The translations under genes and the position numbers were made by a program. The notes under the pieces were generated by a model that did not search any database, had not been told where the DNA came from, and saw only the letters and a program-made list of their open reading frames with translations. DNA of 64,000 bases from Paremcibacter congregatus (GTDB lineage: Bacteria > Pseudomonadota > Alphaproteobacteria > Sphingomonadales > Emcibacteraceae), in the NCBI RefSeq assembly GCF_006385135.1, contig NZ_CP041025.1:2015501-2079500 (forward strand), written 5' to 3'. Shown here in pieces: positions 2,816 through 27,410 of the stretch. Positions within the stretch are counted from its first letter, which is position 1, and each line of letters opens with the position of its first letter.

Positions 2816-2972
2816 AGTTCCAACCCGATTGATTATAAATCCTGACGCTTCTTTGCAGCAACGTCCTTCTATACAATTTTTAAATTAACAAACCGTATGC
2901 GAGATAAAATACGCCGCCCCGCAGATATAATCCGTTATTGTTAGCACTGTCAACATTAAGCCGGGAATATTT

Positions 2973-3626: not shown

Positions 3627-3912
3627 ATAGAGACACTCCTGAAATATGTGACTTTTCGTTGCGCCCTTTTATAAGGGCTCTGTGTAACCATTACAACATA
3701 GGAAATGCCACTACTTTGAGACTATATGCCAATCTTTTGCGATGATTGGCAAATAAATTCGTTTTACGTCTAAGCTATTTGCCGCGCCCTGGCAGTAAAG
3801 CCGTTTCATCTCACTCATCAGGTTTATGAAATTCTGTTCCCAAGGCGCAAATAATTATTTGACTTCCCTCCCAATTACGCTAAAAGACGGATACTGTTTT
3901 TGGCAGTATTTA

Positions 3913-3986
3913 GGCGCGGTGGCGGAATGGCTACGCAGCGGATTGCAAATCCGTCTATACCGGTTCGATTCCGGTCCGCGCCTCCA
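3913..3986 (+). tRNA. tRNA-Cys (GCA)
   Basis: This is a 74-nt cloverleaf. The acceptor stem 3913-3919 pairs with 3976-3982, the anticodon GCA is at 3945-3947 in a seven-base loop, and the T-arm contains GGTTCGATTCC. It has U73 discriminator, as expected for tRNA-Cys, and an encoded CCA end. Confidence 0.97.
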
Positions 3987-4010
3987 CTTCCCCACCCTGA
4001 CATGCCTCAT

Positions 4011-4045
4011 AAAAAAAATGCACCGATCAAAATTTGACCGGTGCA
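4011..4045 (-). terminator. Rho-independent terminator after the thiolase gene
   Basis: A near-perfect stem (TGCACCG...CGGTGCA, 4019-4045) is followed on the minus strand by eight U residues (4011-4018). It is placed 30 nt beyond the thiolase stop and faces the tRNA-Cys gene. Confidence 0.85.
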
Positions 4046-4074
4046 CACAAAATTTATATTTCAGTCTTAGCCCT

Positions 4075-5259
4075 TTAAAGCACCTCGAACAGGCCGGCCG
4101 CCCCCATGCCGCCGCCGACACACATGGTGACCACAACATATTTCACCCCGCGTCGCTTGCCCTCGATCAGGGCATGGCCAACCATACGCGACCCGCTCAT
4201 CCCGTAGGGATGACCGATTGAAATCGCCCCACCATTCACATTCAAGCGTTCCTGGGGAATTCCAAGTTTATCGCGACAATAAATAACCTGCACCGCAAAG
4301 GCTTCATTTAATTCCCACAAGCCGATATCATCCATTTTTAATCCGGTTTGCCGCAGCAGTTTGGGAATCGCCAGAACCGGACCAATCCCCATTTCATCGG
4401 GCTCGCAGCCGCACACCGCCATACCGCGATAAGCCCCGAGGGGCGCCAGGCCGCGACGTTCGGCCTCCGCCCGCTCCATCAGAAGATTTGCCGATGCTGC
4501 ATCAGATAATTGACTTGCATTACCAGCGGTTATCGAACCACCTTCAACCACTGGATTAAGTCCAGCCAGACTTTCCGCAGACGTCGACGGACGGTTGCCT
4601 TCGTCTTTTTCCAGCACGACATCCTCATAGGAAATTTCGCCGCTTTCCCTGTCTTTGACGACTTTCGTTGAGGGCAGAGCAACAATTTCATCATCAAACA
4701 GGCCTGCAGCCTGAGCAGCGGCGGTGCGCCGTTGGCTTTCCAGCGCATATTCATCCTGCGCCTCGCGACTGATCTGATAACGATTGGCCACCACTTCCGC
4801 TGTTTGCAGCATTGGCATATATGCATCCGGCCGCAATTTAATCAGGTTCTTGTCGGCCTGCTTCATGAGAAGCTCAAAGGCGGGCGCCTGCACAATAGAA
4901 ATATTATCCACGCCGCCCCCAATGGCAATTTCAATACCATCACAGATAATCTGTTTCGCCGCCGTCGCAACCGCCATCAGACCGGAGGCGCATTGACGAT
5001 CTATGCTCATGCCGGACACCGAGACCGGAAGCCCTGCCGCCATGGCACTTGTCCGACCAATATTCCAGCCTGTGGACCCGGCTGGCAAAGCCGTACCCAT
5101 GATAACGTCTTCGATATCACTACCCTCAACACCGGCACGGCGCACCACCTCGGCAATCACATGCCCCCCCATGGTCGGGGCCATGGTGGCGTTAAATGCC
5201 CCTTTATAGGCGCGCCCTATCGGTGTTCTGGCTGTCGCGACGATAACTGCTTCTCTCAT
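4075..5259 (-). CDS. Acetyl-CoA acetyltransferase / thiolase
   Basis: This 394-aa thiolase should catalyse Claisen condensation or thiolytic cleavage of acyl-CoA (acetoacetyl-CoA synthesis or beta-oxidation). The nucleophilic Cys is C90 in SIDRQCASG. The NEAFAVQ motif, the catalytic His H350 in [14 protein letters not shown] and the second Cys C380 in [10 protein letters not shown] are all present. The ATG at 5259 ([15 protein letters not shown]) is preferred to one 33 nt upstream, because the family begins here and a GAGGGAA ribosome site lies just before it. It stands alone with its own terminator. Substrate chain length cannot be told from sequence. Confidence 0.94.
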
Positions 5260-5453: not shown

Positions 5454-7133
5454 TCAGTTCTTTGATTTAACATACACAGACGACAAGTCCTGCCAAACCT
5501 TATCCGTCATTAAAATCCTGCCTTTGTGCATAATCCATCTGTCAGGTAACTTGTCAGGATCAACAAAAGTAACTGTCAGGGAAGTCATATAGCCAGCCGG
5601 CGTCCCTGCCCCCATGCGAACACCATTGTATGTTGAATATCGCGTCCGCGTGTAATTTGTAATATCGCTGATAATGAAGCCGGTTTTTTTTGACTGACGC
5701 GCCAAATCAGCCGCCCGCAACAAGCTCAGCTCCTCCACAACAGTTCGTGAGGATACGTCACCAACAAATTTAATTTCATAGCGGTCTTTCCCCAGCTCTT
5801 TCTCGCTGAATCCGCTTCCCTTGAAGAACCAGACTTTACCGGAATAGCTGTTCATCTGTGATTTCTTTTCAAGACTTGGTAATCTTTCGAACAGGCTTGT
5901 GACGAAATTTTTACCGGTCTTGTTGGAAAATGCCTTGGTGTTTCTCAGCTTAAACCAAGCTGCTTCAACATCTACCTTCATGAGCCCTAAGCGATTTTCT
6001 TCCGGAATGATGCGCTGCAGTTTCTCAAGCAAATCCAGCAAAGCCGGCCAAACCGGGAATTTTTTAGATGACGACACCAGAGTATCACGCGCGCCGACCA
6101 GATCACGGTTGTAATATTGCCCATAAGCCTTCACCAGTACGTCCTGCATGCCCACCAAGTCTTCGGCATTATCAGTACTCAGACGGCGTAGGCGGCGAAT
6201 AATGTCCTCACGATCATTTTGCTTTTCCGGGGCGCCCACAAGAGTGGTTTTAGCCTGCTCCATGAATGCCTCCGCCTGAGCCATTTGCCCGACCCGCGCA
6301 GCGGCAATCGCCGCCATTCCGATGGTTACCGGATCAGATGTAGTGATAATCTGAATATCCTTAGCAGACACAAGTCCGCTAAAGCTTTCCTGCATTTCAG
6401 CCGTTTTATAAGAGGCTTTTTTTCTGAAACCGCCCGCCACAAGGTGAGCCCAATTCTCTGCGGCCTTCACCTCCTGCCCGTCCTGAATATCCAGCAAAGT
6501 TGCGTGCAAGTATAAATAGTCCGAATCCAGTCTCACCATGCGTTCAATAACAGCCAACCGATCGTCGGTCATATATTTCAGGCCGAGGGATTGAAGATTT
6601 TTACTATACGGGCGCATATCAGAAAATGCTTTAAAGGCGCCCCGTGCCGCATCAGCATTATCGTTCATGATCAGCGCCACACCCTCCAGATATTTCACCG
6701 ACAGCCCCAAGCTGCGCTGATAAAAGATATCATCTGCATGGGAACCGGCTACTTCATCAATTTTCTGCAAATCAGCCAAGGCTGCATCGCCATTTTTGAC
6801 TTCAAGATAATGTATTGCCCGGGCCCTCAAAATATTTACATGTCGCTCCCAACTCCCGCCATCATCAAAATATCCTGATGCCAAAACAGTTGTACAGGCC
6901 GCAATGCCAGCCTCCCCAACTTCACGGTAATGGGCTTTTGAGCCGGATTCCGCGATACTGCCCAGCAGGCCCAAAGTCCCCGCCATCAAAAGCGCGTTCC
7001 CCAGATCTTTAGTATGGGACGCCCGGGACGCCAACCCGTCACACTTCACCCATTCGTCAGGCACGTATGGTGGCCGAGAACTACACCCGGCTAGAATAAT
7101 GATAAGTGAAAATGCTAGAATTTTTTTTGACAT
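5454..7133 (-). CDS. Unknown lipoprotein, 559 aa
   Basis: I do not recognise a named family. The N terminus is a lipoprotein signal with lipobox LAGC (Cys at about 17), so the protein is probably anchored in the envelope. The middle (about 90-380) is alanine-rich and helical, with degenerate TPR-like spacing (for example HYLEVKNGDAALADLQKI and AAIAAARVGQMAQAEAFMEQA). The C-terminal ~150 residues are more beta-like, with a conserved-looking segment around VRMGAGTPAGYMTSLTVTFVDPD. It may be a scaffold or peptidoglycan-associated factor, but no function is assigned. It stands alone between the thiolase gene and tRNA-Arg. Confidence 0.8.
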   Translation of the reverse strand: MSKKILAFSLIIILAGCSSRPPYVPDEWVKCDGLASRASHTKDLGNALLMAGTLGLLGSIAESGSKAHYREVGEAGIAACTTVLASGYFDDGGSWERHVNILRARAIHYLEVKNGDAALADLQKIDEVAGSHADDIFYQRSLGLSVKYLEGVALIMNDNADAARGAFKAFSDMRPYSKNLQSLGLKYMTDDRLAVIERMVRLDSDYLYLHATLLDIQDGQEVKAAENWAHLVAGGFRKKASYKTAEMQESFSGLVSAKDIQIITTSDPVTIGMAAIAAARVGQMAQAEAFMEQAKTTLVGAPEKQNDREDIIRRLRRLSTDNAEDLVGMQDVLVKAYGQYYNRDLVGARDTLVSSSKKFPVWPALLDLLEKLQRIIPEENRLGLMKVDVEAAWFKLRNTKAFSNKTGKNFVTSLFERLPSLEKKSQMNSYSGKVWFFKGSGFSEKELGKDRYEIKFVGDVSSRTVVEELSLLRAADLARQSKKTGFIISDITNYTRTRYSTYNGVRMGAGTPAGYMTSLTVTFVDPDKLPDRWIMHKGRILMTDKVWQDLSSVYVKSKN

Positions 7134-7321
7134 TTGCTATCCCCTCAAGTTGTTTATTTTTAGTTAGCCGCTAAACTCTAGCCACATAGAACTCATTCAG
7201 CAATACATAAAAATCCTGTCCCTAGGTCCAAGAAGAACCATAAGGGCACAACAGATATACACATAATAAAAGGAAAGCGCTTTTCAGGGGCCGTAATACA
7301 TTGATTTATGGAGATATTTAT

Positions 7322-7398
<77 letters not shown>

Positions 7399-7425
7399 CC
7401 TGTTATCACAAACTTGATGAAAAAC

Positions 7426-7713
7426 CTATCCACGATAGGCGAAGACATCGGCATATGCCTTGATTCTTCGTTTTGGCATCTTGGGCTCCACCACTTCATA
7501 TGCAAGCCCGTTACGCTTGGCATATGCAATGGCGTCTTCCTTGGTGGCGAACTTCAGTTTGACCTGACTTTCCATATCCGACGAACCTGTCCAGCCCATA
7601 AGAGGGTCCAGGCTTTTGCCTTCTTCTGAAATATATTCCAAAATCCACTGCCGGGTATTCTTCATACCTGACTGCATGGCATTTTTTGTCGGTTTATATA
7701 TACGGGCTGTCAT
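7426..7713 (-). CDS. NADH dehydrogenase (complex I) accessory subunit, NDUFS4-like
   Basis: This 95-aa protein belongs to the ETC complex I conserved-region family (NDUFS4 / 18-kDa AQDQ subunit), a supernumerary complex I subunit shared by alphaproteobacteria and mitochondria. The N-terminal MTARIYKPTKNAMQSG, the central WILEYISEEGKSLDPLMGWTGS and the C-terminal KFATKEDAIAYAKRNGLAYEV are characteristic. The ATG at 7713 is preferred over a GTG at 7722 because AGGTGG lies 5 nt before it. It stands alone rather than in a nuo operon, as usual in this class. Confidence 0.9.
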   Translation of the reverse strand: MTARIYKPTKNAMQSGMKNTRQWILEYISEEGKSLDPLMGWTGSSDMESQVKLKFATKEDAIAYAKRNGLAYEVVEPKMPKRRIKAYADVFAYRG

Positions 7714-7993
7714 AGGTTCCACCTAACTGTCGACGACATCATCAATCACAGTCTTGTATCCCAAAGCAGAATTAAGGGAAAGTGAAAAAACAACTCCGGG
7801 CATTTTATTTCATATCAGCAGGTCATAAACGTGCCCATCGTAATATAATATATCGCCATATATGTGCTTACCGTCAGAGCATTAACCAAGGAAGAAAAGT
7901 ATCAACTTTTCAGCAGCTGGGCTATCCGCGTCAAACAACCCTATAAGGCCTGACAGCTGAGGTATATTTACTTTCGGGACTTAAAGAGGGTAC
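7714..7993. other. Intergenic stretch without gene
   Basis: This ~280-bp AT-rich stretch should hold the promoter of the complex I subunit gene on the minus strand. No ORF, tRNA or clear repeat was seen. Confidence 0.5.
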
Positions 7994-11767: not shown

Positions 11768-12199
11768 ATGATTGATCAACTTTACCAAAAAGCCATTTTA
11801 AAACATGCCGCTGCTGCGATTGGCCATGGTGCTGTTGATCCTGCCGACAGACACTTAACGGTTCACAATCCTTTATGTGGTGACAGAATAACCGTGTCTC
11901 TGACCCTTGAGGGAGAAAAAATATCCAGCTTTGCTCATAAGACAAAGGCCTGTGTCTTATGCCAGGCCAGCGCATCGATTCTTGCAGAGAGTATTGTCAA
12001 TGAAACGCATGAAAGTCTTGAGATTGTCTATCAAAACCTGAAAAGCGGCCTGTCCGATAAACAGCTTACAGAATGGCCGGAAGATAAATGGCGGGCGCTG
12101 CATATCTTCCAGCCTGTTTCAGATCATAAAAATAGGTTTACCTGTGTCACCCTTCCCTTTGAGGCCACGCTAAAGGCTTTAAACGGGGATAAATCCTGA
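11768..12199 (+). CDS. SufU/NifU-like iron-sulfur cluster scaffold protein
   Basis: This 143-aa protein of the NifU N-terminal/SufU family should act in the cytoplasm as an Fe-S scaffold or sulfur-transfer partner. The three conserved Cys positions are in NPLCGDR (about 38), ACVLCQAS (about 60-63) and RFTCVTLP (near 127), and the partner Asp is in the first motif. The acceptor-like region CQASASILAES matches the SufU type. It is transcribed toward the bufferin operon and ends 5 bp from the DoxX stop. No other suf genes are near, so its main partner must be elsewhere. Confidence 0.85.
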   Translation: MIDQLYQKAILKHAAAAIGHGAVDPADRHLTVHNPLCGDRITVSLTLEGEKISSFAHKTKACVLCQASASILAESIVNETHESLEIVYQNLKSGLSDKQLTEWPEDKWRALHIFQPVSDHKNRFTCVTLPFEATLKALNGDKS

Positions 12200-12204
12200 T
12201 CCCT

Positions 12205-12705
12205 TTACAGGCATTTCTTACAAATCAGCCGGTCCAGGGACAGTTTCCCGCCGCCCTTGGCCATAATGACCAGCAATGCAATCGCCCATAGGCCATGAAC
12301 GGTCCAGAGATTGGGATAAACGAAAATCTGGATCACAGCCGTCATCGCCAACATCGCCAAGGCAGCATAACGAGTGAACAGGCCGAAGATCAGCGCCATT
12401 GGCAACAGGATTTCCGCTGCAAGCGCCATATGGGCCGCCAGTTCCGGGGACAACAATGGCAAATCATACTCATATTCAAACAATGTGTATGTCCCCGATG
12501 CCACAGTCCAATCCAAAGTCACCACATTCCAGATCTGGGCGAGAGAAAACTCTCCCAGTCCTGCTTCATTAAATGCAATTTTGGTCATGGCCGATTTCCA
12601 GAAAATAGCTGCCATGATAATACGACCCGCCATCGCCAGATAACAAATCTCAATTTTGCCCATCAGGCCACTCAGCCACATCACCAGCTTTTTTAATGTC
12701 ATCAT
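12205..12705 (-). CDS. DoxX family membrane protein of the bufferin locus
   Basis: This 166-aa integral membrane protein has four predicted membrane helices and a DoxX pattern (AGRIIMAAIFWKSAMTKI, LAAEILLPMALIFGLFTRYAALAM). It is the last gene of the minus-strand operon bufA1-bufB1-bufC1-doxX, 21 bp after bufC1. The same four-gene order is known from gig (gold-induced) and bufferin clusters, where DoxX (GigT) accompanies the peptide-modifying genes. A role in redox supply or metal/peptide handling at the membrane is inferred only. GGAGAAGG precedes the ATG. Confidence 0.88.
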   Translation of the reverse strand: MMTLKKLVMWLSGLMGKIEICYLAMAGRIIMAAIFWKSAMTKIAFNEAGLGEFSLAQIWNVVTLDWTVASGTYTLFEYEYDLPLLSPELAAHMALAAEILLPMALIFGLFTRYAALAMLAMTAVIQIFVYPNLWTVHGLWAIALLVIMAKGGGKLSLDRLICKKCL

Positions 12706-12726
12706 TTGCCTTCTCCTTGCCCGTTA

Positions 12727-13497
12727 TTACTTAATCATAAAACCGTCTATCAGATCAGCCTGCAGAATGGCCTGCAAAGCCACCTCCAGTGAAAAGTCCG
12801 TATAAAGATCCATAACCTGCGTACCGGCCTGCCCCAGTGTCTCGCCCGCTGCCAACCGTTTCACCAATTCATATCCCGCCTCATCCAGCCGCATCACTTC
12901 AACCTCCAGCTCCCGACGAAACACAACAAGGTATGATTCTCCCTGATCCAGATTAATTTCGACTCCCAAAGGGCTGTCTTCCTGATTTGCTAGCCAGATA
13001 TCCAGAATGGGATAGACGCTGTGGAGCATCCCCATATTAGGTAAAAAACGGAAGACCAGATCGTTAAATTTTTCTGGGGCGATCTCGTTAAGCCGGGCAA
13101 CCCCAAATCCGCTGGCGTCTGGCCCATTAAACGTAGAATTCCATTGATGTTCGAACCGGGCCACGTCAGACAAATACGGCAAGCCTTCTACCTCCGGTAC
13201 ACTGCACAGAAAATTCGCCATTTCCGCCCCATAGGTCATCAAAATCGGGCTTTTTGGTGGACAGACGCGAATGTAACGCCGGGCGAGCTGATCAAAAAAA
13301 ACCTGACCAACCAACCGATACAGGACCGGGAAATTCTGTGCCAAGGCTGCCCCGAGTGTAATAAAACTGTTATTGCAGTATATATTCAGACGATCTTCCA
13401 CCGGTAACCCGGCCGGGACAATCGCGTCACTAACAAGTCCGGTATCCCCTTCCAGAATAGACCGGGTGAAACGATGTTGAAAATTACCCACAGACAT
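12727..13497 (-). CDS. bufC: DUF2063 protein, MNIO partner (BufC-type), locus 1
   Basis: This 256-aa protein has the DUF2063 domain in the N-terminal half (QHRFTRSILEGDTG...RLNIYCNNSFITLGAALAQNFPVLYRLVG). DUF2063 proteins bind the leader of the precursor peptide and assist the DUF692 oxidase. The ATG at 13497 (MSVGNFQHRF) is chosen over the upstream start at 13530, as it fits the family start. It overlaps the bufB1 stop by 14 bp, which suggests translational coupling. The C-terminal half (about 150-256) is variable and resembles the RRE-like part of this family. It lies second to last in the operon. Confidence 0.9.
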   Translation of the reverse strand: MSVGNFQHRFTRSILEGDTGLVSDAIVPAGLPVEDRLNIYCNNSFITLGAALAQNFPVLYRLVGQVFFDQLARRYIRVCPPKSPILMTYGAEMANFLCSVPEVEGLPYLSDVARFEHQWNSTFNGPDASGFGVARLNEIAPEKFNDLVFRFLPNMGMLHSVYPILDIWLANQEDSPLGVEINLDQGESYLVVFRRELEVEVMRLDEAGYELVKRLAAGETLGQAGTQVMDLYTDFSLEVALQAILQADLIDGFMIK

Positions 13498-14389
13498 AAT
13501 CTTGCTCTTCCTGAAGGTTTTGACAGCCATGTGTTTTAAGAAAAATGTCGGCCCGATGTGCTTCCTGTTGCAAGGTCATCAGGGAAGGAATATTGCTGTC
13601 CCATTCGATCAGACTTGGTTTGGGGCCCATCAGTTTCAGAGTATAATCATATAACGCCCAGACATCCCGCGAAACATTGGTGCCATGGTCGTCAATGCGC
13701 AACGTCTTCCCCCGCCAAGTTTTAAGTGAATGACCGGCAAGGTGGATTTCCTGAACAGTATCAGGCTTCAGAGCCGCGAGGTAGGTTTGTGCATCCCAAC
13801 CATGGTTCTCGCAACTGACGTAAACATTGTTCACATCCAACAACAAGCCACAGCCGGTCCGCGCCAAAATCTGATTGAGGAACTCCGGCTCCTCCATAAC
13901 ACTGGCATGCAGCAAAAGATACGTGGACGGGTTTTCCACCAGAATCTGGCGGCCGAGAAAATCCTGCACCTGCTCAATATGATCACAGGTCAATTGCAGG
14001 GTTTCAGGTGTATAGGGCAAAGGGATCAAATCATTAAGATAAACCCCGTTGGCGACACTCCAGGAAATATGCTCCGACACCAGGGCCGGTTGATACCGGT
14101 CCACCGCTTTCTTTACGGCCTTCAGGTGATCCAGAGACACCCCGTCTGCACTGCCCAATGACAGGCCGACGCCATGCATGGACAAGGGATATTTTTCGCG
14201 GATTTTTTCCAGAAAGAAGTGTGGCGCGCCGCCGGCCCCCATATAATTCTCTGTGTGGACTTCAAACCAGCCGACATCAGGGTTTGTCTCCAGAACGTCC
14301 TGATAATGTTGCGGCTTAAGCCCGATCCCGGCACGCACCGGAATCGGGTCAGAATTCAGGGCCCGCCTATCCTTCTTGAAGGGAGACAT
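13484..14389 (-). CDS. bufB: MNIO (DUF692) peptide-modifying oxidase, locus 1
   Basis: This 301-aa TIM-barrel enzyme belongs to the multinuclear non-haem iron oxidase family (DUF692), which uses O2 to convert Cys residues of precursor peptides into heterocycles. Likely metal ligands are visible in order: MHGVGLSLG, SEHISW, ENPSTY, LLLDVNNVYVSCENHG, HLAGH, DDHG and IEWDSNIP. The start is 10 bp after the bufA1 stop, and the end overlaps bufC1 by 14 bp, so the three genes form one unit. The DUF2282 neighbour identifies the substrate. Chemistry is known for the family and inferred here. Confidence 0.93.
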   Translation of the reverse strand: MSPFKKDRRALNSDPIPVRAGIGLKPQHYQDVLETNPDVGWFEVHTENYMGAGGAPHFFLEKIREKYPLSMHGVGLSLGSADGVSLDHLKAVKKAVDRYQPALVSEHISWSVANGVYLNDLIPLPYTPETLQLTCDHIEQVQDFLGRQILVENPSTYLLLHASVMEEPEFLNQILARTGCGLLLDVNNVYVSCENHGWDAQTYLAALKPDTVQEIHLAGHSLKTWRGKTLRIDDHGTNVSRDVWALYDYTLKLMGPKPSLIEWDSNIPSLMTLQQEAHRADIFLKTHGCQNLQEEQDYVCG

Positions 14390-14399
14390 GCGCTAACGC

Positions 14400-14669
14400 C
14401 TATTTGTCAGACTTGAGGCTGCCACCGACGATTTTCTCGCATGTCCCTTTGGGAACATAGATCCAGGCGTCTTTCTGTCCATCTGTTGTCGAGGTTCCAG
14501 CACAGGAAGAATTGGCCGTCGCACAATCATTGTGTCCTGATTTTACAATGCCATAGCATTTTTCAACAGCCTTGTCTTTTGCCTGAACAACAGGTGCAGA
14601 AGCCATGGTCAAGGCCGCCGCCATTGCAGATGCGACAACGATTGATTTGGTGGGTGAAACTTTAGTCAT
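14400..14669 (-). CDS. bufA: DUF2282 bufferin precursor peptide (4-Cys type, BufA1)
   Basis: This 89-aa secreted small protein has a Sec signal peptide over about 1-30 (cleavage near VQA-KD). It is followed by a DUF2282 core with four Cys (38, 49, 56, 77) in [17 protein letters not shown] and [12 protein letters not shown]2282 peptides of bufferin/gig loci are modified on Cys by the DUF692 enzyme and help cells tolerate copper or gold. The gene is first in its operon and has its own 150-bp upstream region, so it can be expressed separately from locus 2. No confident promoter motif was found there. Confidence 0.92.
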
Positions 14670-14818
14670 TTTATAGTCCTCTCGGTTAATATTAATTATT
14701 CAAACTCATCACTACTCTACCCCGAAGAAAGTCAGATTCGATGAACAGCAACACGATCTCACAGTCGCTCTTCAAAGGAAAGTAACAGATGATCACACTA
14801 TTCGTGAACGTCCGTGAC

Positions 14819-15613
14819 CTAAAGCGGTAGTTTCGCATGATCTAGTCGGGATATTAATCCCTCAACCACCCAGCCTTTCAGGAAATTCGCGGCCTTGGCA
14901 GGTGCATCATCCCCGTAGAATTTCGCCAAGGCCTCACATACCTCTGGAAACGCTCTGTATTCGGAAACCACCTTCAAGGCGGCGGCTTCCTCCCGTGGCA
15001 GTGTCCTGAAATAACTACGCAAATCATACCGCCATTGTATCACATCGGCCGGTTCAGGCATTTTTTCTGGCAAAGTTGGTTCTTCATACTGTTCCTTCAC
15101 CGACGCCCATACCCCCGCTACATTCCATTCATAAGCCTGCATATAAAAAGAGGGATGAAACCTGAACCGTAAAGTCGTCCACACCATCGGCGATAAGGCC
15201 GCCACATCGGAAAGCGTTACATAAGGAGCATCAGGTGCGTCGAATACATCATGAAATTTCCATTCGAAATGCGCCATTTCCTGAACAACCGGATTGTCAC
15301 AATAAGGAGGCTCCTCCCCGACCAGTTTCTCAAGGTAACGCCCAAACAGCCTTAAGGAAGGATGACCGGAAGGATAGAGGTCTATATAAAGCTGACACAA
15401 TGTATAAAAAGCCTCATCCCCCAGCATGGTATGCAGAACAGGATAATCTTCCTGTAAAATATCCCGTAGCCGTGCCCGATAGGCATGTTGGTAAATCCCT
15501 AAGCGGCGTTCGGGACTGATCTTACCCCCCTTTTCAATACAAGAAAGGAAATCTGTTTTTTGACCAATCACAGCGCCATGAAACAACGCCTGCATTTTTT
15601 CAAGGTCGGACAT
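14819..15613 (-). CDS. bufC: DUF2063 protein, MNIO partner (BufC-type), locus 2
   Basis: This 264-aa paralogue of the locus 1 DUF2063 protein begins with the typical [20 protein letters not shown]...[33 protein letters not shown]. The ATG at 15613 is chosen. A longer reading frame reaching 15727 would lie wholly inside bufB2, so it is unlikely. The start overlaps the bufB2 stop by 14 bp, the same overlap as in locus 1. It ends the second operon; ~150 bp later comes bufA1 of locus 1. Function as substrate-binding partner of the MNIO is inferred from the family. Confidence 0.9.
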
Positions 15614-16469
15614 TGCGGTCTCTCCTTTCAGTATCCGTGATCCCCCATGCTTTTTCCCCGATTTCACGCGCCTGATCAAGTTCCGCCAACAAAACCGGGA
15701 GCGCCGGAATGTTGTCATCCCGTTCAATCATAGTCGATACCGGACCAAATATTTCACATGCTTTTGCATAGAGATCCCATACTTCTGAGCGTACCGGATG
15801 ATCATGGGTGTCAATCAAAACATCGCCATTATCTTCATGTCCTGCCAGGTGAAACTGCCAAACCCGGTCTTTCGGAATCGCTTGCATATAGGCTAGCGGA
15901 TCAAAGTCGTGATTAAACCCGCTCACATAGATATTATTGATGTCCAAAAGCAGCAGACAATCCGCCCCCTCGGCCACCTCAGCAATAAACTCCCATTCGG
16001 TCATGTCGGAATTGGTAAACCCCAGGTAACTGGACGCATTTTCCAGCAAAATTTGCCGACCAAGATAATCCTGAACCTGTTTCACTCTGTCAATAACATG
16101 ACGGGCCGTATCCTGATTATATGGCAGCGGCATCAGATCATGTAAATTATGTCCGCCAAGGCCTGTCCAGCACATATGGTCGGAAACCCAGGAGGGATTA
16201 ACCCTGTCGGCCAGCTTTTTAAGATCGGCCAGATATTCCATATTCAAGGGATCGGTTGCCCCGATGGAAAGCGATACCCCATGCATGACAACGGGATAAC
16301 GCTCTATAATCTGATCAAGATAGTAAAGTGGCTTGCCCCCAGGCACCATGTAGTTCTCTGAAATAATCTCAAACCAGTCAACAGACGGGTTTTCAGTCAG
16401 AACAGACTCATAATGGTCAGGACGTAGACCCAAGCCAAAACCGAGATAAGGGCGCGGTGATTGTGTCAT
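15600..16469 (-). CDS. bufB: MNIO (DUF692) peptide-modifying oxidase, locus 2
   Basis: This 289-aa DUF692 TIM-barrel enzyme is paralogous to the locus 1 enzyme. The same ligand-bearing motifs are present: [56 protein letters not shown] and IERDDNIP. The start follows the precursor gene by 73 bp that hold a terminator-like hairpin, so translation of the enzyme should be lower than that of the peptide. Sequence differs enough from the locus 1 enzyme to suggest each is dedicated to its own precursor. Confidence 0.93.
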
Positions 16470-16484
16470 AAGTTATGGTCTCAT

Positions 16485-16525
16485 AAAAAACGGCGGCACC
16501 TTCCTGTAAAAGATACCGCCGTTTT
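16485..16525 (-). terminator. Intra-operon terminator/attenuator between bufA2 and bufB2
   Basis: On the minus strand AAAACGGCGGT (16525-16515) pairs with ACCGCCGTTTT and is followed by six U residues reaching 16485. It lies 18 nt after the precursor stop and ends 16 nt before the bufB2 ATG. It has full Rho-independent form but sits inside the operon, so read-through is expected to give much precursor mRNA and little enzyme mRNA. Confidence 0.8.
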
Positions 16526-16542
16526 CGTGTGTTTTCAAAGGC

Positions 16543-16818
16543 TTATTTGTCTTTTTTAACTTTGCCGCCTTTTTTGGCGCATTCTTCAGCAGACATGCTC
16601 AAAAAGCCCTGTCCCTTACAGGACCCCTGCCCCTTACAGGCATTCGTTTCTGTTTTACAGTCATTATGTCCTTTACAGGCATTCACACCATAACAATGTA
16701 CTTTAGCTTCTTTTCCTTTAGCATGGCCGTCACCAGCAGCAGCAACACCTGAGGCAGCAAAAATGCCAGCCGCAGAAACGGCCATTGCAAGTCCGAGTGT
16801 TTTCATTGGAGTTGTCAT
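16543..16818 (-). CDS. bufA: Cys-rich bufferin precursor peptide (6-Cys type, BufA2-like)
   Basis: This 91-aa protein has a signal peptide over about 1-28 and a Lys/Gly/Cys-rich core. The six Cys (42, 48, 54, 61, 67, 80) have spacing 5-5-6-5-12. The core shows an internal repeat, [10 protein letters not shown] then [10 protein letters not shown], followed by AEECAKKGG and a basic tail. This is the second precursor class of bufferin loci. It is the likely substrate of the DUF692/DUF2063 pair just downstream. Secretion plus many Cys suggests periplasmic or outer buffering of thiophilic metals; the metal itself cannot be read from sequence. Confidence 0.9.
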
Positions 16819-17193
16819 ATCTTAAAGTCTCTCTATATTTTGAGTCAATGTTAGCGGGCTAATTGTTACATTTGAATTTCTTATTTTCCCAGTCACACCA
16901 TATCACATATTTGTGTATCCTATAGCGGTGTTGCTAAATCTCTGAATAGTATACACGAATTCATTAATAAGTAAAATTATTGCCCCTGCCTGTACGCGGT
17001 CCACCGGGATGAAACAGAAAATATCTTAAGAATATCAATCTTTTTAAATTTAATAACGATTATTACTTGCATTATTAATCCGCATCGATATAGTGATCCC
17101 TACTGACGCGATAAAGACAACAGGGTTGCTCCCTCCCTATCCACATTGGGCAACCTATCTGACAGTTGTCATTGTGCGTTATGTTGATACCCT
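16819..17193. other. Promoter-bearing intergenic region between bufA2 and mscS
   Basis: This divergent, AT-rich region has no credible ORF. It must hold the bufA2 promoter on the minus strand and at least part of the mscS promoter on the plus strand. A small inverted repeat TGACA-gt-TGTCA is near 17160. I could not assign a sigma-factor class. Confidence 0.5.
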
Positions 17194-18331: not shown

Positions 18332-21300
18332 ATGACCTGGACCAAAAAGAGCCTAAAAAACCCGGCAGCAGTGGCGGTAATCGTCGCCGTTATATTCCTC
18401 TTCGGAGGTTATAGCGTCACACAATTGCCTGTACAGCTATTCCCCAATATTGAATATCCGCAGCTCGGCATATTCACCTCCTGGCGATCCGCGTCGCCGG
18501 TGGAAATTGAATCGGAAATTACCGAACCCCTGGAAGAAGTATTGCAAGGCATTCCCGGTCTGAAGGAAATGAGCGTCAATTCAAATCAGGGCGCGGCCTT
18601 TATCAATCTTCAGTTCACCATGGAAGCCGACATGGACAAGGTCGTGCTCGACGTTATCAGTCGACTGAACCGCCTACGGCCCCTGCCGGTGGATGCGGAC
18701 AAGCCTGTTCTTTTTCTAGGCGGCGGTGGAGGGTCCAATGACACCCTGATCTATTATTTCATGCAAAAACTGCCAGACAATCCGCGCGCCATTGATGAAT
18801 ATATGACCTTTACCCAGGATCGTATAATCCCCCTGTTCGAGGCCATTCCCGGCGTCGCCCAGGTCAATAATCAAACCAACCTTCCCGAAGAAGAACTGCA
18901 AATTACCTTCGATCCTTACCGGGCCGCGGAACTTGGGATTGATGTTGCCGACATGGCGGCGGCCGTGGGCCGGTCCCGTGATCTATCCGGGGGCTTTATC
19001 GAAAACGGCCGTCGGCGGTATACGGTGCGTTTTATGGGGCGTTATACTCCGGAGGATCTGAAAAATCTGGTCCTTGAATGGCGGGACAGCGGCCCAATCA
19101 AACTGGGCGACATCGCAGAAATCACTGTCAGCCGGGGAAAACAAACAGACATCGGCATCCAGAATGGTAATCCCGCCCTCTCGCTGCAAATCACCCGGGA
19201 AAATGGCGCCAATGTTCTGGAAACGATTCAAAAAGTTAACGCTCTTGCCGATGAACTCAACCAGGGCATTTTGAAAAATAACGGCCTGTTCATGCAGAAA
19301 TCCTTTGACCCGTCTGTGTTCATCAAACGCGCCACCGGACTCCTGTCGGGGAATCTTGTTCTGGGGGTCTTTTTTGCCATCGGCATTCTGTGGTGGTTCC
19401 TACGTCAGTCACGCGCCACCCTGATTATCGCCATTACCATTCCGGTCTGCCTGCTCGCGACCTTTATCGTTCTTTATATGGCGGGGCGTTCAGTGAATGT
19501 TATTTCCCTGGCTGGTCTGGCTTTCGCCACCGGTATGGTGCTTGACGCCGCCATTGTCGTAATGGAAAATATCTGCCGTCTGAGAGAGAACGGCACAAAG
19601 ACCGATGCGGCCTGTACGATAGGTGCAAAACAGGTCTGGGGGGCGTTGGTGGCCTCGACAGCAACAACCGTCGCCATATTTTTACCGGTCATGCTTTTAA
19701 AGGACGTTGAGGGCCAGCTATTTTCCGATCTGGCGTTAACCATCGCCATCGCGGTCAGTGTATCACTGTTTGTCGCAGTCACGGTATTGCCCGTTGCCAA
19801 TAAACATTTTATGAAAGGTAATCTTCCCAAAGATAAAAATTATAAAACCTGGCAAAAGATGTCCGGCAGGATCATGTCCCTGACCCGCACGACAAAACAC
19901 CGCATGGCCTGGATCACCAGCCTGATTGCAGTGTCCATTGTCGGAACCTATCTGATGTTTCCCAAACTGGACTATCTGCCGCCGGTCAAACGCGATGCGG
20001 TGGATGTATTTTTCAGATTTCCTGCCGGCATGTCCTCAGATGTCCTGCTGAAAGAAATTGTTCCGGTCCTGACAAAACGTATGGAACCATATGTTACAGG
20101 CGCCAAGGAACCGGCCCTGAAGAATTATTATCTGATCACCTTTACCAATTTCAATGGAGGCACCATGGGAATCCGGGCAAAGGATCAGTCTCGGGTCAAG
20201 GAACTTGAACGCATCGTACGCGAAGAAATTATCGCCGACCTGCCGGATGTACAGACTTTTGCCTCACAAGGGAATCTCTTTGGCGGCTTTGGCGGTAGCG
20301 GCAATATTGCCATACATTTACAATCCACCGACAGTGCGGCATTGGCGAATGCCTCCCTGAAAACATCTGAGTATGTCACTGATGCCCTGCCGACAGCACA
20401 GGTCAATCCGGCGCAGAATCCGGAACAGGCCCAACCCCTGCTTTCCATCGTGCCGGACGACAGACGCATTCAGGAAGCCGGATGGAGCCGCAGTCAACTT
20501 GGTCGCGTCATTCAGACCACAGGAAATGGCTTGTTTGTTGGGGAATTTTTTGATGGAGAAAAACGGATGAATATCATCCTGAAAACTCCTGAAAATACCA
20601 GTCCGGAAGAAATCGCCGCTGTCCCCCTCGCCACCCCGAACGGCGGCATTATGCAGCTGGGAGAATTGGCGCGTCTGGACCAAACCGTGGGACCGCAGCA
20701 AATCCGGCGCGTGAATGGTCGTCGCACCATGACATTCAATGTTTCTCCGCCGGAAGGTATGCCATTGCAGGAAGCCATGGAGATTATTCGTCGCGATGTT
20801 GAACCGAAGATACTGGCAGATCTTGGCGATGGGGGCAGCGTGATTTACGGGGGCAGCGCCGATTCCCTTAAAAACGCCATCGCCAGTCTTGGCAGTAATT
20901 TTCTTCTGGCCTTTGGCTTGTTGTTCATGATCCTTGCTGCGTTATTTAGATCCCTGAAGGACGCCTCTCTGGTGGTGATCAGCATTCCTCTTGCCGCTGT
21001 AGGGGGCATCGCCGCCATCCGCATTCTCGGGCTTTTCACCACCCAATCTCTGGATCTTCTGACCATGATCGGTTTTATCATCCTCCTGGGGTTGGTGGTC
21101 AACAACGCCATCTTGCTGGTCATGCAGACCCGGGCGGGCGAAGCCGAAGGACTGGGCCGTCAGGCATCCGTGCAACAGGCCCTTGAGCTGCGGTTACGCC
21201 CAATCTTCATGAGCACCCTGACCAGTATTTTCGGTATGCTGCCCCTCTTGCTGTTCCCGGGGGAAGGCAGCGCCATCTATCGTGGTCTTGCCGCCAGCAT

Positions 21301-21454
21301 TGTCGGTGGTATGGCGGTCAGTACGGTCTTTACCCTGATCCTGTTGCCGAGCCTGCTACAACTTGGCAAGGCGCAAAAGGTGCCCAAACTCATTATTGAT
21401 AACAAGACAGACAGCCCGTCTCTGGAAGACAGACTAGTCGGTGTCGGAGAATAA
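18332..21454 (+). CDS. RND efflux permease (HAE1 family)
   Basis: This 1040-aa inner-membrane RND transporter uses proton motive force to export drugs or other amphiphiles. The usual plan is visible: TM1 at about 10-30, a large periplasmic loop, a TM bundle (about 335-490) with GMVLDAAIVVMEN in TM4 carrying a single Asp in place of the common Asp-Asp pair, a second loop, and TM8-12 (about 850-1010). It is first in an operon: the adaptor gene starts 2 bp after its stop, followed by a sensor kinase and a regulator. The outer-membrane channel is not in the operon. Substrate is unknown. Confidence 0.93.
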   Translation: MTWTKKSLKNPAAVAVIVAVIFLFGGYSVTQLPVQLFPNIEYPQLGIFTSWRSASPVEIESEITEPLEEVLQGIPGLKEMSVNSNQGAAFINLQFTMEADMDKVVLDVISRLNRLRPLPVDADKPVLFLGGGGGSNDTLIYYFMQKLPDNPRAIDEYMTFTQDRIIPLFEAIPGVAQVNNQTNLPEEELQITFDPYRAAELGIDVADMAAAVGRSRDLSGGFIENGRRRYTVRFMGRYTPEDLKNLVLEWRDSGPIKLGDIAEITVSRGKQTDIGIQNGNPALSLQITRENGANVLETIQKVNALADELNQGILKNNGLFMQKSFDPSVFIKRATGLLSGNLVLGVFFAIGILWWFLRQSRATLIIAITIPVCLLATFIVLYMAGRSVNVISLAGLAFATGMVLDAAIVVMENICRLRENGTKTDAACTIGAKQVWGALVASTATTVAIFLPVMLLKDVEGQLFSDLALTIAIAVSVSLFVAVTVLPVANKHFMKGNLPKDKNYKTWQKMSGRIMSLTRTTKHRMAWITSLIAVSIVGTYLMFPKLDYLPPVKRDAVDVFFRFPAGMSSDVLLKEIVPVLTKRMEPYVTGAKEPALKNYYLITFTNFNGGTMGIRAKDQSRVKELERIVREEIIADLPDVQTFASQGNLFGGFGGSGNIAIHLQSTDSAALANASLKTSEYVTDALPTAQVNPAQNPEQAQPLLSIVPDDRRIQEAGWSRSQLGRVIQTTGNGLFVGEFFDGEKRMNIILKTPENTSPEEIAAVPLATPNGGIMQLGELARLDQTVGPQQIRRVNGRRTMTFNVSPPEGMPLQEAMEIIRRDVEPKILADLGDGGSVIYGGSADSLKNAIASLGSNFLLAFGLLFMILAALFRSLKDASLVVISIPLAAVGGIAAIRILGLFTTQSLDLLTMIGFIILLGLVVNNAILLVMQTRAGEAEGLGRQASVQQALELRLRPIFMSTLTSIFGMLPLLLFPGEGSAIYRGLAASIVGGMAVSTVFTLILLPSLLQLGKAQKVPKLIIDNKTDSPSLEDRLVGVGE

Positions 21455-21456
21455 CC

Positions 21457-22518
21457 ATGACAAGACCCCCTGTAAAATTTCTGGTTTCAGCCCTAGCTCT
21501 TGTTCTGATCACCCATAGCGCCGAGGCCCAACAGCCGCCGAACCAGCCCAAGGCGAAAGTTCGGGTCGCAACTGCGGAAATGACCGAAATCGCCCCGACC
21601 CTGAATGTGCCGGGCACCGTGGTCAGCCTGCAAAACTCGCGCCTTGCGGCTGAAACCTCCGCTGCAGTCGACTGGGTTGCAGAGGTCGGTACCCAGGTAA
21701 AAAAAGGGGCCACCGTGGCCCAGTTGAATAAACGCCTGCTGCAACTGGAACTGGTCAACAGCGCGGCAGATATCAAACGCATCAAAGCTCAACTGGATTT
21801 TCGCACGAAAGATGTCACCCGCCTTAAAAAGCTTCTGACCAACCAAACTATTGCCGAAAGTCGCTATGACGAGGCCATCTCGCAGGAAAGCGTCCTCGAA
21901 CAGGAACTGGCCCAGGCCGGCGCCCGCCACGACAGAATAAAATACCTTCTGGAAAAATCAGAAATCAAGGCGCCTGCTGATGGATGGGTTGTCGAACGTT
22001 ATATTTCTGCAGGAGAATATGTTACCGCCGGGGCACCGGTGGTTCGCTTTGTCGATACCGTAAATTCAGAGATTACCGTTCAGGCGCCTCTGGACCTGTT
22101 GCCCAACATCACGGCCGGCATGGAAATCACAGTCGCCAATGGTAACCAACTGGTCACAACCCGGATCAGAGCCATCATTCCTGTCGGGGATAATGCCAGC
22201 CGCATGGCTGAGATAAGACTGGAAAATCCGGGCAGAAAATGGGCCATCGGCACAGCCGTGCGCGTTAGTCTGCCCAATGCTGAAACGCGAAAAGTCCTTG
22301 CCGTACCAAGAGATGCCTTGATTATTCGCGCCGGACAAAGCTATATTTACAAAATTGCGCAGGACGGCAAAGCCGAACGGATTAACATTCGCTCTGGCGT
22401 GACCAGCGCAACACGTATAGAAGTAACAGGACACCTCACCCAAGGAGACCAGGTGGTCACTCGGGGTGGGGAAACATTACGGCCAGGACAGGAAGTTGAA
22501 GTCCTGCCGTTAAGTTAA
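21457..22518 (+). CDS. RND pump periplasmic adaptor (membrane fusion protein)
   Basis: This 353-aa periplasmic adaptor links the permease to an outer-membrane channel. It has a signal peptide over about 1-25. A lipoyl-like half (VPGTVVSLQNSRLAAETSAAVDWVAEVGTQVKKG, shown in part of the N-terminal region), a coiled-coil hairpin (about 95-155), the second lipoyl half (SEIKAPADGWVVERYISAGEYVTAGAPVV, in part) and beta-barrel/MP domains follow. No lipobox Cys is seen, so it is soluble or peripherally held. Tight coupling to the permease gene fixes the partner. Confidence 0.93.
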   Translation: MTRPPVKFLVSALALVLITHSAEAQQPPNQPKAKVRVATAEMTEIAPTLNVPGTVVSLQNSRLAAETSAAVDWVAEVGTQVKKGATVAQLNKRLLQLELVNSAADIKRIKAQLDFRTKDVTRLKKLLTNQTIAESRYDEAISQESVLEQELAQAGARHDRIKYLLEKSEIKAPADGWVVERYISAGEYVTAGAPVVRFVDTVNSEITVQAPLDLLPNITAGMEITVANGNQLVTTRIRAIIPVGDNASRMAEIRLENPGRKWAIGTAVRVSLPNAETRKVLAVPRDALIIRAGQSYIYKIAQDGKAERINIRSGVTSATRIEVTGHLTQGDQVVTRGGETLRPGQEVEVLPLS

Positions 22519-22535
22519 GTCCGGACAGGTGTATA

Positions 22536-23642
22536 TTGGATAAACGATTAAAAACATTGATTGAGCATAAAGAACGCCTGTTCTGGAGCTTGCAGATTCT
22601 CGGCTGGATCGCCTATTGCGCCGCCCGGACATTGAATGCCTATGCCCTCGGAGAAAAACCGGAATTTATTTATGCGGTAATGATGGGGGTTATCGGCGGG
22701 TTCTGGATTACCATCGGGCTGCGACATATCTATCAGTTCCTGCGCCAGGCCAACATGCCTCCGCTGCTGATGTTGCTGTCAATCATTGTGTGCATTCTCC
22801 TGAGCTCCATGCTTTTTTCCGTAATTGAAGTCTGGTCAAAAAACCAACTCTATGATCCCGACTGGACCATGGAAGGCATGGGATTCCTCTATCGGTCACT
22901 CTATGACACTTTTGTCCTGATGGCCTGGACAGGGCTCTATTTCGTGATCAATTACCATTTCCAGCTCCAGCAGCAGAAAGAAATGTATCTTGCCGCCTCG
23001 GCGCAGGCCCATCAGGCCCAGTTGCAGATGCTGCGCTATCAGTTAAACCCGCATTTCCTGTTTAACACCCTGAACGCCATTTCCACCCTGGTTCTGGAAA
23101 ATCAGATTAAGGAAGCCAACGGCATGTTGAACAAGCTGAGTGCGTTTCTACGCTTCAGCCTGGTCAGCCAACCAACACAAAAAACAACTCTGGAAGAAGA
23201 ACTCTACGCCCTGTCGCTCTATCTTGATATTGAACGGGTAAGATTCCAGGAACGGCTCAAGGTTGAAATCGACGTCACAGATGAGGCAAAGGCCGCACTG
23301 ATCCCCGGTCTCTTGCTTCAGCCTATTGTCGAGAACGCCATTAAATATGCGGTCAGCCCTCAGGAAGATGGCGGCACCATATCCATTACAGGAAAAATTG
23401 AGGATAAAAAACTCAAAATCACTCTGCAAGACGATGGCCCCGGTTTTTCCAAGGAGAAGCCAAAGGATTATCACCAGAAATCGAGTGGGGTAGGCATTGC
23501 CAATACGCGGGAGCGTCTCAAAAAGCTTTACCCTAATTCCAGTACGTTTGAAGTCATAAGCCAGGATAAAAAAGGTGTTACCATACACATCACACTGCCT
23601 TGTGAGTTTTCCAATGAGCCTTATGCGGAGGTTGCTCAATGA
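22536..23642 (+). CDS. LytS/YpdA-type sensor histidine kinase
   Basis: This 368-aa membrane kinase has four N-terminal helices (about 12-35, 45-65, 78-100, 122-142), a short coiled coil, and a His_kinase domain with the phospho-acceptor H173 in NPHFLFNTLNAIS. An HATPase domain follows (VENAIKYAVSPQ, DDGPGF, GVGIANTRERL). There is no large sensory loop, so the signal is probably sensed in or at the membrane. It starts with TTG at 22536 after GGACAGG. It overlaps the regulator gene by ATGA at 23639-23642. It is the third gene of the RND operon, so it most likely controls this pump. Confidence 0.93.
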   Translation: MDKRLKTLIEHKERLFWSLQILGWIAYCAARTLNAYALGEKPEFIYAVMMGVIGGFWITIGLRHIYQFLRQANMPPLLMLLSIIVCILLSSMLFSVIEVWSKNQLYDPDWTMEGMGFLYRSLYDTFVLMAWTGLYFVINYHFQLQQQKEMYLAASAQAHQAQLQMLRYQLNPHFLFNTLNAISTLVLENQIKEANGMLNKLSAFLRFSLVSQPTQKTTLEEELYALSLYLDIERVRFQERLKVEIDVTDEAKAALIPGLLLQPIVENAIKYAVSPQEDGGTISITGKIEDKKLKITLQDDGPGFSKEKPKDYHQKSSGVGIANTRERLKKLYPNSSTFEVISQDKKGVTIHITLPCEFSNEPYAEVAQ

Positions 23643-24454
23643 TGCAAAAGAAAATCAGGACACTGTTGGTTGACGACGAACCCCTCGCCTTGCGTGGGCT
23701 ACAAATTCGTTTGAAGGAATTTGAAGATGTCGAAATCATTGGGACCTGTTCCAATGGCCGCGAAGCCATCAAAAAAATTCGTGCCGAACGTCCGGCGCTT
23801 GTCTTTCTCGATATTCAGATGCCTGGCTTCGATGGCTTCGCCGTGATCAAGGCCCTGGCCAAGGAAGAAATTCCCTTGATTGTATTTGCCACGGCTTTTG
23901 ATCAATATGCCATCAAAGCCTTCGAATCACATGCTCAGGATTATCTTCTGAAACCGATTGATACAGACCGACTGCATGAAACCATGAACCGCGTCCGCGA
24001 AGCCATCAAGGAGCGGATCACGGTCGAACAGAATGCCAAGCTTATTGAATTGATCCGGTCTATGGACAATCCACCGACCCTTGAGTTGTCCGAAATCATC
24101 AATACCCAGGAACTGGTCAACGAAAATAACTATGAAACTCATCTCAATATCAAGGATCGCGGACAAATCACCCGGGTCGATATTACAACGATTGAGTGGA
24201 TTGATGCGGCCGGGGATTATATGTGTCTGCATGCCGACGGCAAGACTCATATCCTGCGGGAAACCATGAAAAATATGGAAAAGCGCCTCGATCCGGAAAT
24301 ATTCCAGCGCGTCCATCGGTCCACCATCATTAACATCAACAAGGTTAAGGAGCTGCAACCCACCACTGGCGGAAAGTATCAAATTACCCTGGAAAGCGGT
24401 GCCGACCTTCAGGTCAGCCGTAATTACCGTGATGTATTGGGGCGGTTCCTGTAA
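23639..24454 (+). CDS. LytTR-family response regulator
   Basis: This 271-aa regulator has a receiver domain (about 6-125) with the acidic pocket VDDE and phospho-acceptor D58 in FLDIQMPG. A C-terminal LytTR DNA-binding domain (about 165-271) contains EWIDAAGDYMCLHADGK and FQRVHRSTIININKVKELQ. LytTR proteins bind direct repeats upstream of target genes. It overlaps the kinase gene by 4 bp. It ends the RND operon and ends 11 bp from the convergent gene at 24466. Confidence 0.94.
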   Translation: MMQKKIRTLLVDDEPLALRGLQIRLKEFEDVEIIGTCSNGREAIKKIRAERPALVFLDIQMPGFDGFAVIKALAKEEIPLIVFATAFDQYAIKAFESHAQDYLLKPIDTDRLHETMNRVREAIKERITVEQNAKLIELIRSMDNPPTLELSEIINTQELVNENNYETHLNIKDRGQITRVDITTIEWIDAAGDYMCLHADGKTHILRETMKNMEKRLDPEIFQRVHRSTIININKVKELQPTTGGKYQITLESGADLQVSRNYRDVLGRFL

Positions 24455-27407: not shown

Positions 27408-27410
27408 AGG

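Follow-up and report, generated by a model that had tools for sequence, protein, structure and literature searches.

Buf1- and Buf2-type bufferin gene sets, probably co-regulated, lie side by side in Paremcibacter congregatus

Organization of the two bufferin gene sets

A window of 64,000 nucleotides of the Paremcibacter congregatus genome (contig NZ_CP041025.1, positions 2,015,501 to 2,079,500; all positions below are those of the window) was analyzed, which carries at 12205–16818 two sets of genes for bufferins, one of the class Buf2 and one of the class Buf1. The two classes lie side by side on the same strand and are probably co-regulated, as a similar sequence element is found upstream of each precursor gene. 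By analogy with published bufferins, copper buffering by both sets is the likeliest function, and we consider it likely that the locus makes two copper-buffering bufferins that act together under one signal, rather than for different metals. PMC12452194 distinguishes two bufferin families, the four-Cys Buf1 (DUF2282) and Buf2, which has six or twelve Cys; their gene clusters have a core of MNIO, DUF2063, and DoxX genes, and their Cys-derived thiooxazoles sequester periplasmic copper.

All seven open reading frames (ORFs) are on the minus strand and are transcribed in the order BufA2-BufB2-BufC2 (16818 to 14819) and then BufA1-BufB1-BufC1-DoxX (14669 to 12205), so that the DoxX-bearing Buf1 set is the second in transcription, with 149 bases separating the two sets. 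The Buf2 set consists of bufA2 (16543..16818), which encodes a 91-amino acid (aa) precursor with 6 Cys (NF050166, 94.3 bits; cut-off 60), bufB2 (15600..16469), an MNIO (DUF692) maturase of the Buf2 clade with an IERDDN motif (NF050167, 386.9 bits; cut-off 310), and bufC2 (14819..15613), a 264-aa DUF2063 partner with a domain of the RiPP (ribosomally synthesized and post-translationally modified peptide) recognition element (RRE) type (PF09836, 60.0 bits). The Buf1 set consists of bufA1 (14400..14669), encoding an 89-aa DUF2282 precursor with 4 Cys (PF10048, 90.8 bits), bufB1 (13484..14389), an MNIO maturase of the Buf1 clade with an IEWDSN motif (389.6 bits with the same NF050167 model), bufC1 (12727..13530), a second DUF2063 partner (PF09836, 79.6 bits), and doxX (12205..12705), a DoxX-family membrane protein that ends the set (PF07681, 46.9 bits). 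Because curated families were matched above their cut-offs, chance is of no concern. These matches, together with published data on bufferins and Caulobacter, bear out an earlier sequence-only reading, which had described here two same-strand bufferin/gig-type RiPP loci of identical order and two precursor classes, each with a small Cys-rich peptide (4 or 6 Cys), a DUF692 enzyme, and a DUF2063 partner, with DoxX closing one of the sets and a link to copper.

The ATG of bufC2 at 15613 results in a 14-base overlap with bufB2, and a longer, TTG-started bufC2 ORF was taken as an over-call. For bufC1, the listed ATG is at 13530; the alternative ATG at 13497 would give a 14-base overlap with the BufB gene, as in the Buf2 set. 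No third MNIO was detected in the 4.19 Mb genome at E 0.001. The NCBIfam equivalog models of HvfABCX, the oxazolin locus, left all seven proteins below cut-off or without a match, with 273.3 and 242.2 bits for the two MNIOs (HvfB, cut-off 360), 39.0 bits for DoxX (HvfX, NF050144, cut-off 80), and 13.9 bits for BufA1 and no match for BufA2 (HvfA, cut-off 95).

A shared element upstream of both precursor genes

The element before bufA2 (16892..16919, minus strand) reads CACA-N4-TGTGAT-N4-TGTGAC, and its core precedes the ATG by about 89 bases. The element before bufA1 (14782..14809, minus strand) reads TTCAC-N6-TGTGAT-N4-TGTTAC and lies in the 149-base gap; here the distance from core to ATG is about 128 bases. 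A motif search without a given consensus was carried out on 12 regions upstream of bufA1 (six) or bufA2 (six) in other genomes, with the window excluded. At a width of 28, the search converged on the shared element, with a site in nine or ten of the 12. When this motif was run over both strands of the window, the bufA2 site ranked first (27.0) and the bufA1 site second (15.0), followed by a third place at 13.7. With a 24-base motif, the bufA1 site came out on top (19.4), and the bufA2 site (13.0) was third, behind an unrelated place (14.6). Thus, each site is clear with one motif width and modest with the other. With an earlier matrix, both sites again took the two top ranks (26.3 and 16.4, against 15.3 for the highest of six single-strand shuffles). 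As the window had been in view when the sites of that matrix, at least two of them doubtful, were selected, the conclusion rests on the window-free search.

Genome-wide, the core TGTGAT-N4-TGTKAY was found at four places: two lie before buf genes, one lies inside a 265-aa ORF, and one spans the end of a 373-aa ORF. The reversed control gave none. The longer form, with up to two mismatches, was found at 27 places versus 6 for the control; the bufA2 site has no mismatch, and the bufA1 site and one further place have one each. As these patterns were derived from the sites themselves, the counts illustrate rather than test the element. An early survey of the family found TCACA/TGTGA words upstream of bufA1 in 8 of 9 cases (three of them near-copies), compared with 6 or fewer in three shuffles; upstream of bufA2 they occurred in 5 of 8, not above the shuffles.

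Signs of control of the SigF/NrsF type, as in Caulobacter, were sought, but neither NrsF (whole genome, E 0.001) nor a GTAACC-N16-CGAA-type promoter (300 bases upstream of either precursor gene) was found. Sigma-70-like sites (15 versus 8.3 in shuffles, standard deviation 2.9) and terminator-like sites (4 versus 6.1, standard deviation 2.5, none in the gap between the sets) were not used for any conclusion.

Active site, specificity position, and clades of the MNIO enzymes

We aligned 169 non-redundant MNIOs from fetched loci, with residue numbers following BufB2. H63, H98, D111, E143, D176, and H207 were conserved in 169 of 169 sequences and D220, H222, E249, and D251 in 168, and all ten residues are present in both window enzymes. 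PMC13097082 describes the residue after the catalytic Asp as a specificity position that differs between Cys-Lys and DUF2282 MNIOs. In our alignment, this residue was Asp in 89 of 101 Buf2-linked enzymes (10 Ala, 2 Gly) versus 1 of 50 Buf1-linked enzymes; a second, partly overlapping set gave 60 of 68 versus 2 of 60. The window enzymes carry D (BufB2) and S (BufB1) at this position, as expected from the published pattern.

The class of the precursor was also mirrored in the relatedness of the enzymes. By BLAST, the nearest MNIO was of the same class for all 60 Buf1-linked and all 68 Buf2-linked enzymes (128/128 class-labelled) in a thinned set that includes some near-copies. In a tree of 92 rows, which began from the same thinned set and likewise contains near-copies, the 37 Buf1-linked rows formed one side of a branch with a Shimodaira-Hasegawa-like approximate likelihood ratio test (SH-aLRT) support of 100. 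One locus, L061, was omitted from the class counts of both, as its Buf1-like ORF is a 3-Cys, 76-aa frame about 700 bases away. A second tree comprised 115 of the 169 non-redundant MNIOs, with the Buf2-linked rows thinned to 20 plus the named loci, and showed two class changes among labelled rows with L061 and one without it. Rows from f6, another family of the window's order, were class-labelled by hand from their gene layouts. BufB1 and BufB2 are 45% identical to each other, and because of this low identity and their separation by class in the trees and BLAST, we regard them as an old pair and not a recent local duplication. Relatives of the MNIOs among solved chains are 3bww, TglH (8hci_D), and MbnB.

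Precursors and partner proteins

BufA2 and BufA1 each carry a Sec-type signal peptide, as judged by eye. The middle four of the six Cys of BufA2 are each followed by Lys, and among 90 six-Cys BufA2-type precursors Lys follows Cys 2, 3, 4, and 5 in 87, 73, 80, and 89 sequences, respectively. In four-Cys BufA1-type precursors, Ala follows Cys 2 in 42 and Cys 3 in 61 of 68.

The signal peptides also differed between the classes. In the hydrophobic core of BufA2, two Ala at fixed positions were conserved at 98% and one at 90% (n=89), whereas the best-conserved Ala positions of BufA1 peaked at 73% (n=67). A matrix built from 52 BufA2 signal peptides, with columns from one joint alignment, gave a median of 10.0 for 38 held-out BufA2s versus 0.75 for 87 BufA1s (area under the curve 0.90), with 15 of the 87 BufA1s scoring above the lowest quarter of the BufA2s. 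The pattern A-x2-A-A was kept in 32 of the 38 held-out BufA2s and is a candidate recognition code. Preliminary results in PMC12452194 favour a recognition sequence that includes the signal peptide. In an RRE survey (PMC12710340), the DUF2063 group, which is frequently paired with DUF2282 precursors, is reported without a specific motif.

We also considered whether BufA1s at loci without a Buf1 MNIO carry the BufA2 pattern, and this was rejected (median 0.94, n=19, versus 0.31, n=57, with a Buf1 MNIO in cis; p = 0.20). Similarity between the N-termini of BufA1 and BufA2 was much the same for own-genome pairs and cross pairs, both in two-set genomes (7 of 14 parsed) and in another group (15 loci).

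The predicted structure of BufC2, based on 31 sequences, had a predicted local distance difference test score (pLDDT) of 94.1. Three PDB matches fell under E 0.001, namely, 3dee, which is the DUF2063 protein NGO1945 (E 9.8e-07), and chain A of the TglHI entries 8hi7 (E 1.2e-06) and 8hci. As chain D of 8hci is the DUF692 protein, chain A of 8hci/8hi7 was taken to be the partner TglI. For BufC1, a sequence search at E 0.1 yielded no solved relative.

Buf1 precursors beside Buf2-clade MNIOs in family f6

The family f6 was sampled by 20 loci, mostly one per genus. In 11 of them, BufA1-DoxX is divergent from BufA2-BufB2-BufC2 and no Buf1-type MNIO is present at the locus, and the same holds for L050, L051, and L203. 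The divergent layout (L050, L051, L203, L210, L211, L212, L218, L220, L221, L222, L224, L225, L226, and L229) looks as if one enzyme serves both precursors. Further, both precursor models were run on 27 genomes, 22 of them from f6. Both precursors with a single MNIO, on the Buf2 side of the tree, were found in 11 of the 22 f6 genomes (G044, G050, G122, G144, G148, G176, G178, G243, G261, G336, and G342).

Three genomes, G012, G091, and G130, each carry two DUF2282 genes and one MNIO, and in none of them does a BufA2 exceed the cut-off. These MNIOs are 66–73% identical to their best Buf2-linked and 48–49% identical to their best Buf1-linked enzyme, and they fell inside the Buf2 side (SH-aLRT 100) of a quick tree. 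An approximately unbiased (AU) test did not reject placing them with the Buf1 clade (log-likelihood 24 lower, p-AU 0.284), and their placement therefore rests on identity and branch support. Taken together, these data suggest that, if the BufA1s in question are modified at all, Buf2-clade enzymes have taken on Buf1 substrates, and apparently did so in two lineages. Judging from the three genomes, specificity seems to have changed during evolution. Recognition of these BufA1s would have to differ, because their signal peptides lack the BufA2 pattern.

A separate clade of f6 MNIOs follows ORFs of 231–235 aa with 12 Cys (L196:3993-4688 and L223:3523-4230), which end in an NMTACGSSGxSGAGGC(S/A) tail; a similar tail occurs in a longer ORF of L202 (part of 2928-4499). 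By eye, no signal peptide was evident in the 12-Cys ORFs, and a neighbouring gene appeared ferritin-like. In L197 (part of 5477-7747), a 756-aa, 19-Cys ORF takes the place of the 12-Cys ORF. The 12-Cys ORFs represent a possible distinct class of MNIO substrate.

Arrangement in other genomes

Among 337 alphaproteobacterial genomes, BufA2 was found over the cut-off in 18 and DUF2282 in 119, and 16 of the 18 had both. Five of these 16 (G000, G465, G474, G588, and G668) have the two precursor genes at most 5 kb apart on a single contig, a count that may miss cases because of contig breaks. The same-strand order A2-B-C followed by A1-B-C-DoxX was observed in the window and in L032 (G015) and L033 (G051), all of one family, and also in L241 (G226) and the gammaproteobacterial L090, in which the A1 ORF was called as 402 aa with 19 Cys. 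In G027 and G086, which belong to the window's family and have both classes, the sets are on different contigs. Other layouts were a reversed order (L194 and L195), a permuted order (L192), and a convergent arrangement (L115 and L193). Side-by-side Buf1 and Buf2 sets thus recur in other alpha- and gammaproteobacteria. In the gammaproteobacterial L070:5676-7913, a Buf1 precursor gene comes fourth in the order A2-B2-C2-A1, and the fetched stretch contains no second MNIO. Published examples include genomes in which several loci encode bufferins and clusters whose precursor genes are in tandem (PMC12452194); in the literature searched (parts of the texts), no description of Buf1 and Buf2 sets side by side was found.

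Genes surrounding the locus

Downstream of the Buf1 set, a SufU/NifU-like protein is encoded on the plus strand (11768-12199; 82.2 bits, SufU cut-off 92.5) and ends 5 bases from the end of doxX. On the other side, 18332-24454 is divergent from the bufferin sets and encodes an RND efflux permease and a periplasmic adaptor, after which come a sensor kinase-like protein and a response regulator of the BtsR/LytR type. The following 531-aa protein (24466-26061) showed a weak match to ZorA (29.5 bits, cut-off 250), perhaps a distant relation only. Two glycosyltransferases akin to PEP-CTERM/XrtA-type polysaccharide systems lie at 26280-28640, of which 27411-28640 exceeds the TIGR04063 cut-off and 26280-27407 remains under that of TIGR03088.

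Proposed function and alternative explanations

From the gene families, we infer the following chemistry, export, copper binding, and copper induction of both sets. The BufA1 and BufA2 precursors would each be made with a Sec signal peptide, and the inner Cys of each would be converted to thiooxazoles in the cytoplasm by its own MNIO-partner pair. The modified products would then be exported to the periplasm, where they would chelate excess copper. For Buf1, the central Cys are reported to be modified and the outer Cys to form a disulfide (PMC12452194); on this pattern, BufA1 would contain two modified Cys (2 and 3) and a Cys1-Cys4 disulfide, and BufA2, by analogy, four modified Cys (the Cys-Lys positions 2-5) and a Cys1-Cys6 disulfide. 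DoxX would serve the Buf1 set as an accessory membrane protein. Both sets would respond to the same signal through the shared upstream element and for that reason would act together, which could provide more, or differently tuned, copper-binding capacity.

Several observations weigh against this proposal. NF050166, the model that names the window BufA2, had no match in the Caulobacter vibrioides control genome, so that the link of BufA2 to the Buf2 of Caulobacter comes from papers and not from a match; as this link is not borne out by the control genome, our confidence is slightly lowered. The predicted structure of BufA2 was poor (pLDDT 63.3) and uninformative on the disulfide and on Cys exposure, and the HvfC model gave 44.0 and 41.2 bits for the BufC proteins, below its cut-off of 142. 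NrsF (PF06532) had no match in the genome at E 0.001, while the control matched in C. vibrioides, and no GTAA[CA]-N14-18-CG sequence was present within 300 bases upstream of either precursor gene. Finally, the gig genes of C. metallidurans are reported in PMC8224329 to have no effect on copper resistance.

The alternative that fares best, though we regard it as doubtful, is that the two sets are interchangeable paralogues, in which each of the two maturase pairs would accept both precursors and the additional set would contribute dosage only. The 11 f6 genomes with both precursor classes and a single Buf2-clade MNIO, and the three (G012, G091, and G130) in which one such MNIO accompanies DUF2282 precursors only, are consistent with interchange, but the BufA1s beside Buf2-clade MNIOs may stay unmodified. 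Against it, every class-labelled MNIO was nearest to its own class, the specificity residue and the Cys context differ between the classes, and the near-invariant Ala pattern of the BufA2 signal peptide is weak in BufA1 and no stronger where the locus lacks a Buf1 MNIO. The earlier suggestion that the pairs may be non-interchangeable is therefore sustained in part: the enzyme-precursor pairs are probably class-specific in the window, where the specificity position differs as expected, but probably not in a strict sense throughout the order, given the three genomes in which a Buf2-clade MNIO is accompanied by Buf1 precursors alone.

It had also been proposed that the peptides differ in the metals or stresses that they handle, in which case the class-specific Cys spacing would confer different metal preferences and different signals would switch on the sets. 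The differing Cys number and motifs of BufA1 and BufA2 and the distinct enzyme clades kept side by side would fit this proposal, as would the published MerC fusions, which suggest other metals for some bufferins (PMC12452194), and the Legionella gig promoter, which answers gold as well as copper (PMC5413113). However, both precursor genes are preceded by the same element, and in print both Caulobacter classes are tied to copper. The two Caulobacter DUF692 loci belong to one SigF regulon (PMC3511200), copper induces both clusters regardless of medium and cell type, and growth in copper is poor when sigF is mutated (PMC8224329); the Caulobacter Buf2 is described as similar in function, on evidence that is itself termed preliminary (PMC12452194). 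Different metals for the two sets are thus unlikely. The decay of one set into a functionless duplicate is very improbable, for although DoxX is present in one set only and published mutants can be without a metal phenotype (C. metallidurans gig for copper, PMC8224329; Caulobacter CC2906 and CC3255 for chromate or cadmium, PMC3511200), every reading frame is intact, the active-site residues are conserved, the two-set order is the same in two other genera of the family, and the shared upstream element has been kept.

Within the favoured explanation of joint copper buffering, a more specific model can be offered only tentatively. The locus might be one co-regulated, two-part copper buffer with class-specific recognition, in which the BufA2 signal peptide, with its near-invariant A-x2-A-A in the hydrophobic core, would be the code for BufB2-BufC2, the Buf1 pair would read a different leader, and specificity could be rewired, as in f6, where one Buf2-clade maturase would have been left to handle Buf1 precursors at least twice.

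Since the gene families are known, the locus itself is ordinary, and its value is that of a test bed. The presence in a single genome of two cognate precursor-enzyme-partner triples with the same upstream element, together with the natural counter-examples of f6, in which a Buf2-clade enzyme accompanies Buf1 precursors only, makes recognition testable by swaps between defined pairs. Two questions left open in PMC12452194 could be addressed here, namely, how a precursor bearing a signal peptide is recognized before export, and whether one MNIO serves several precursors.

Comparison with known systems

Both bufferin classes have already been published, and the present locus adds a side-by-side pair with the same upstream element, a variation on a known system. 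The CC3254-CC3257 locus of C. vibrioides (CCNA_03363-03366) and the gig operons have the same order of DUF2282 precursor, MNIO, DUF2063 partner, and DoxX (PMC3511200 and PMC8224329), and we infer that CC3254-CC3257 is the Buf1 locus of C. vibrioides. In contrast to that locus, the window genome has no NrsF match, a Buf2 set lies directly upstream, and the upstream element is different. The second DUF692 locus, CC2907-CC2905 (CCNA_03001-02999), likewise consists of a small precursor, an MNIO, and a DUF2063 partner, with no DoxX (PMC3511200 and PMC8224329). From PMC12452194, it would be the Buf2 locus of C. vibrioides, contrary to the listing of CC2907 as DUF2282 in PMC3511200. By locus numbers, it is unlinked to the first locus, whereas the window sets are adjacent.

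In captophorins (fontiphorin, oxazolin, gonophorin, and the bufferins), which are Cu-associated thiooxazole peptides, the thiooxazoles are installed by an MNIO and a PME1 partner, and the two sets of the window have their counterparts in the DUF2282 and Cys-Lys groups (PMC13097082). Lys-Cys (EGKCG) repeats are absent from both window precursors. Methanobactin (MbnABC) and the pearlin system TglHI have related MNIOs, and chain A of TglHI is related in fold to the BufC2 model. The MbnABC and TglHI precursors are described as lacking signal peptides, unlike the window precursors, in which they are recognizable by eye, and methanobactin serves the acquisition of copper (PMC12452194), in contrast to the copper buffering proposed here.

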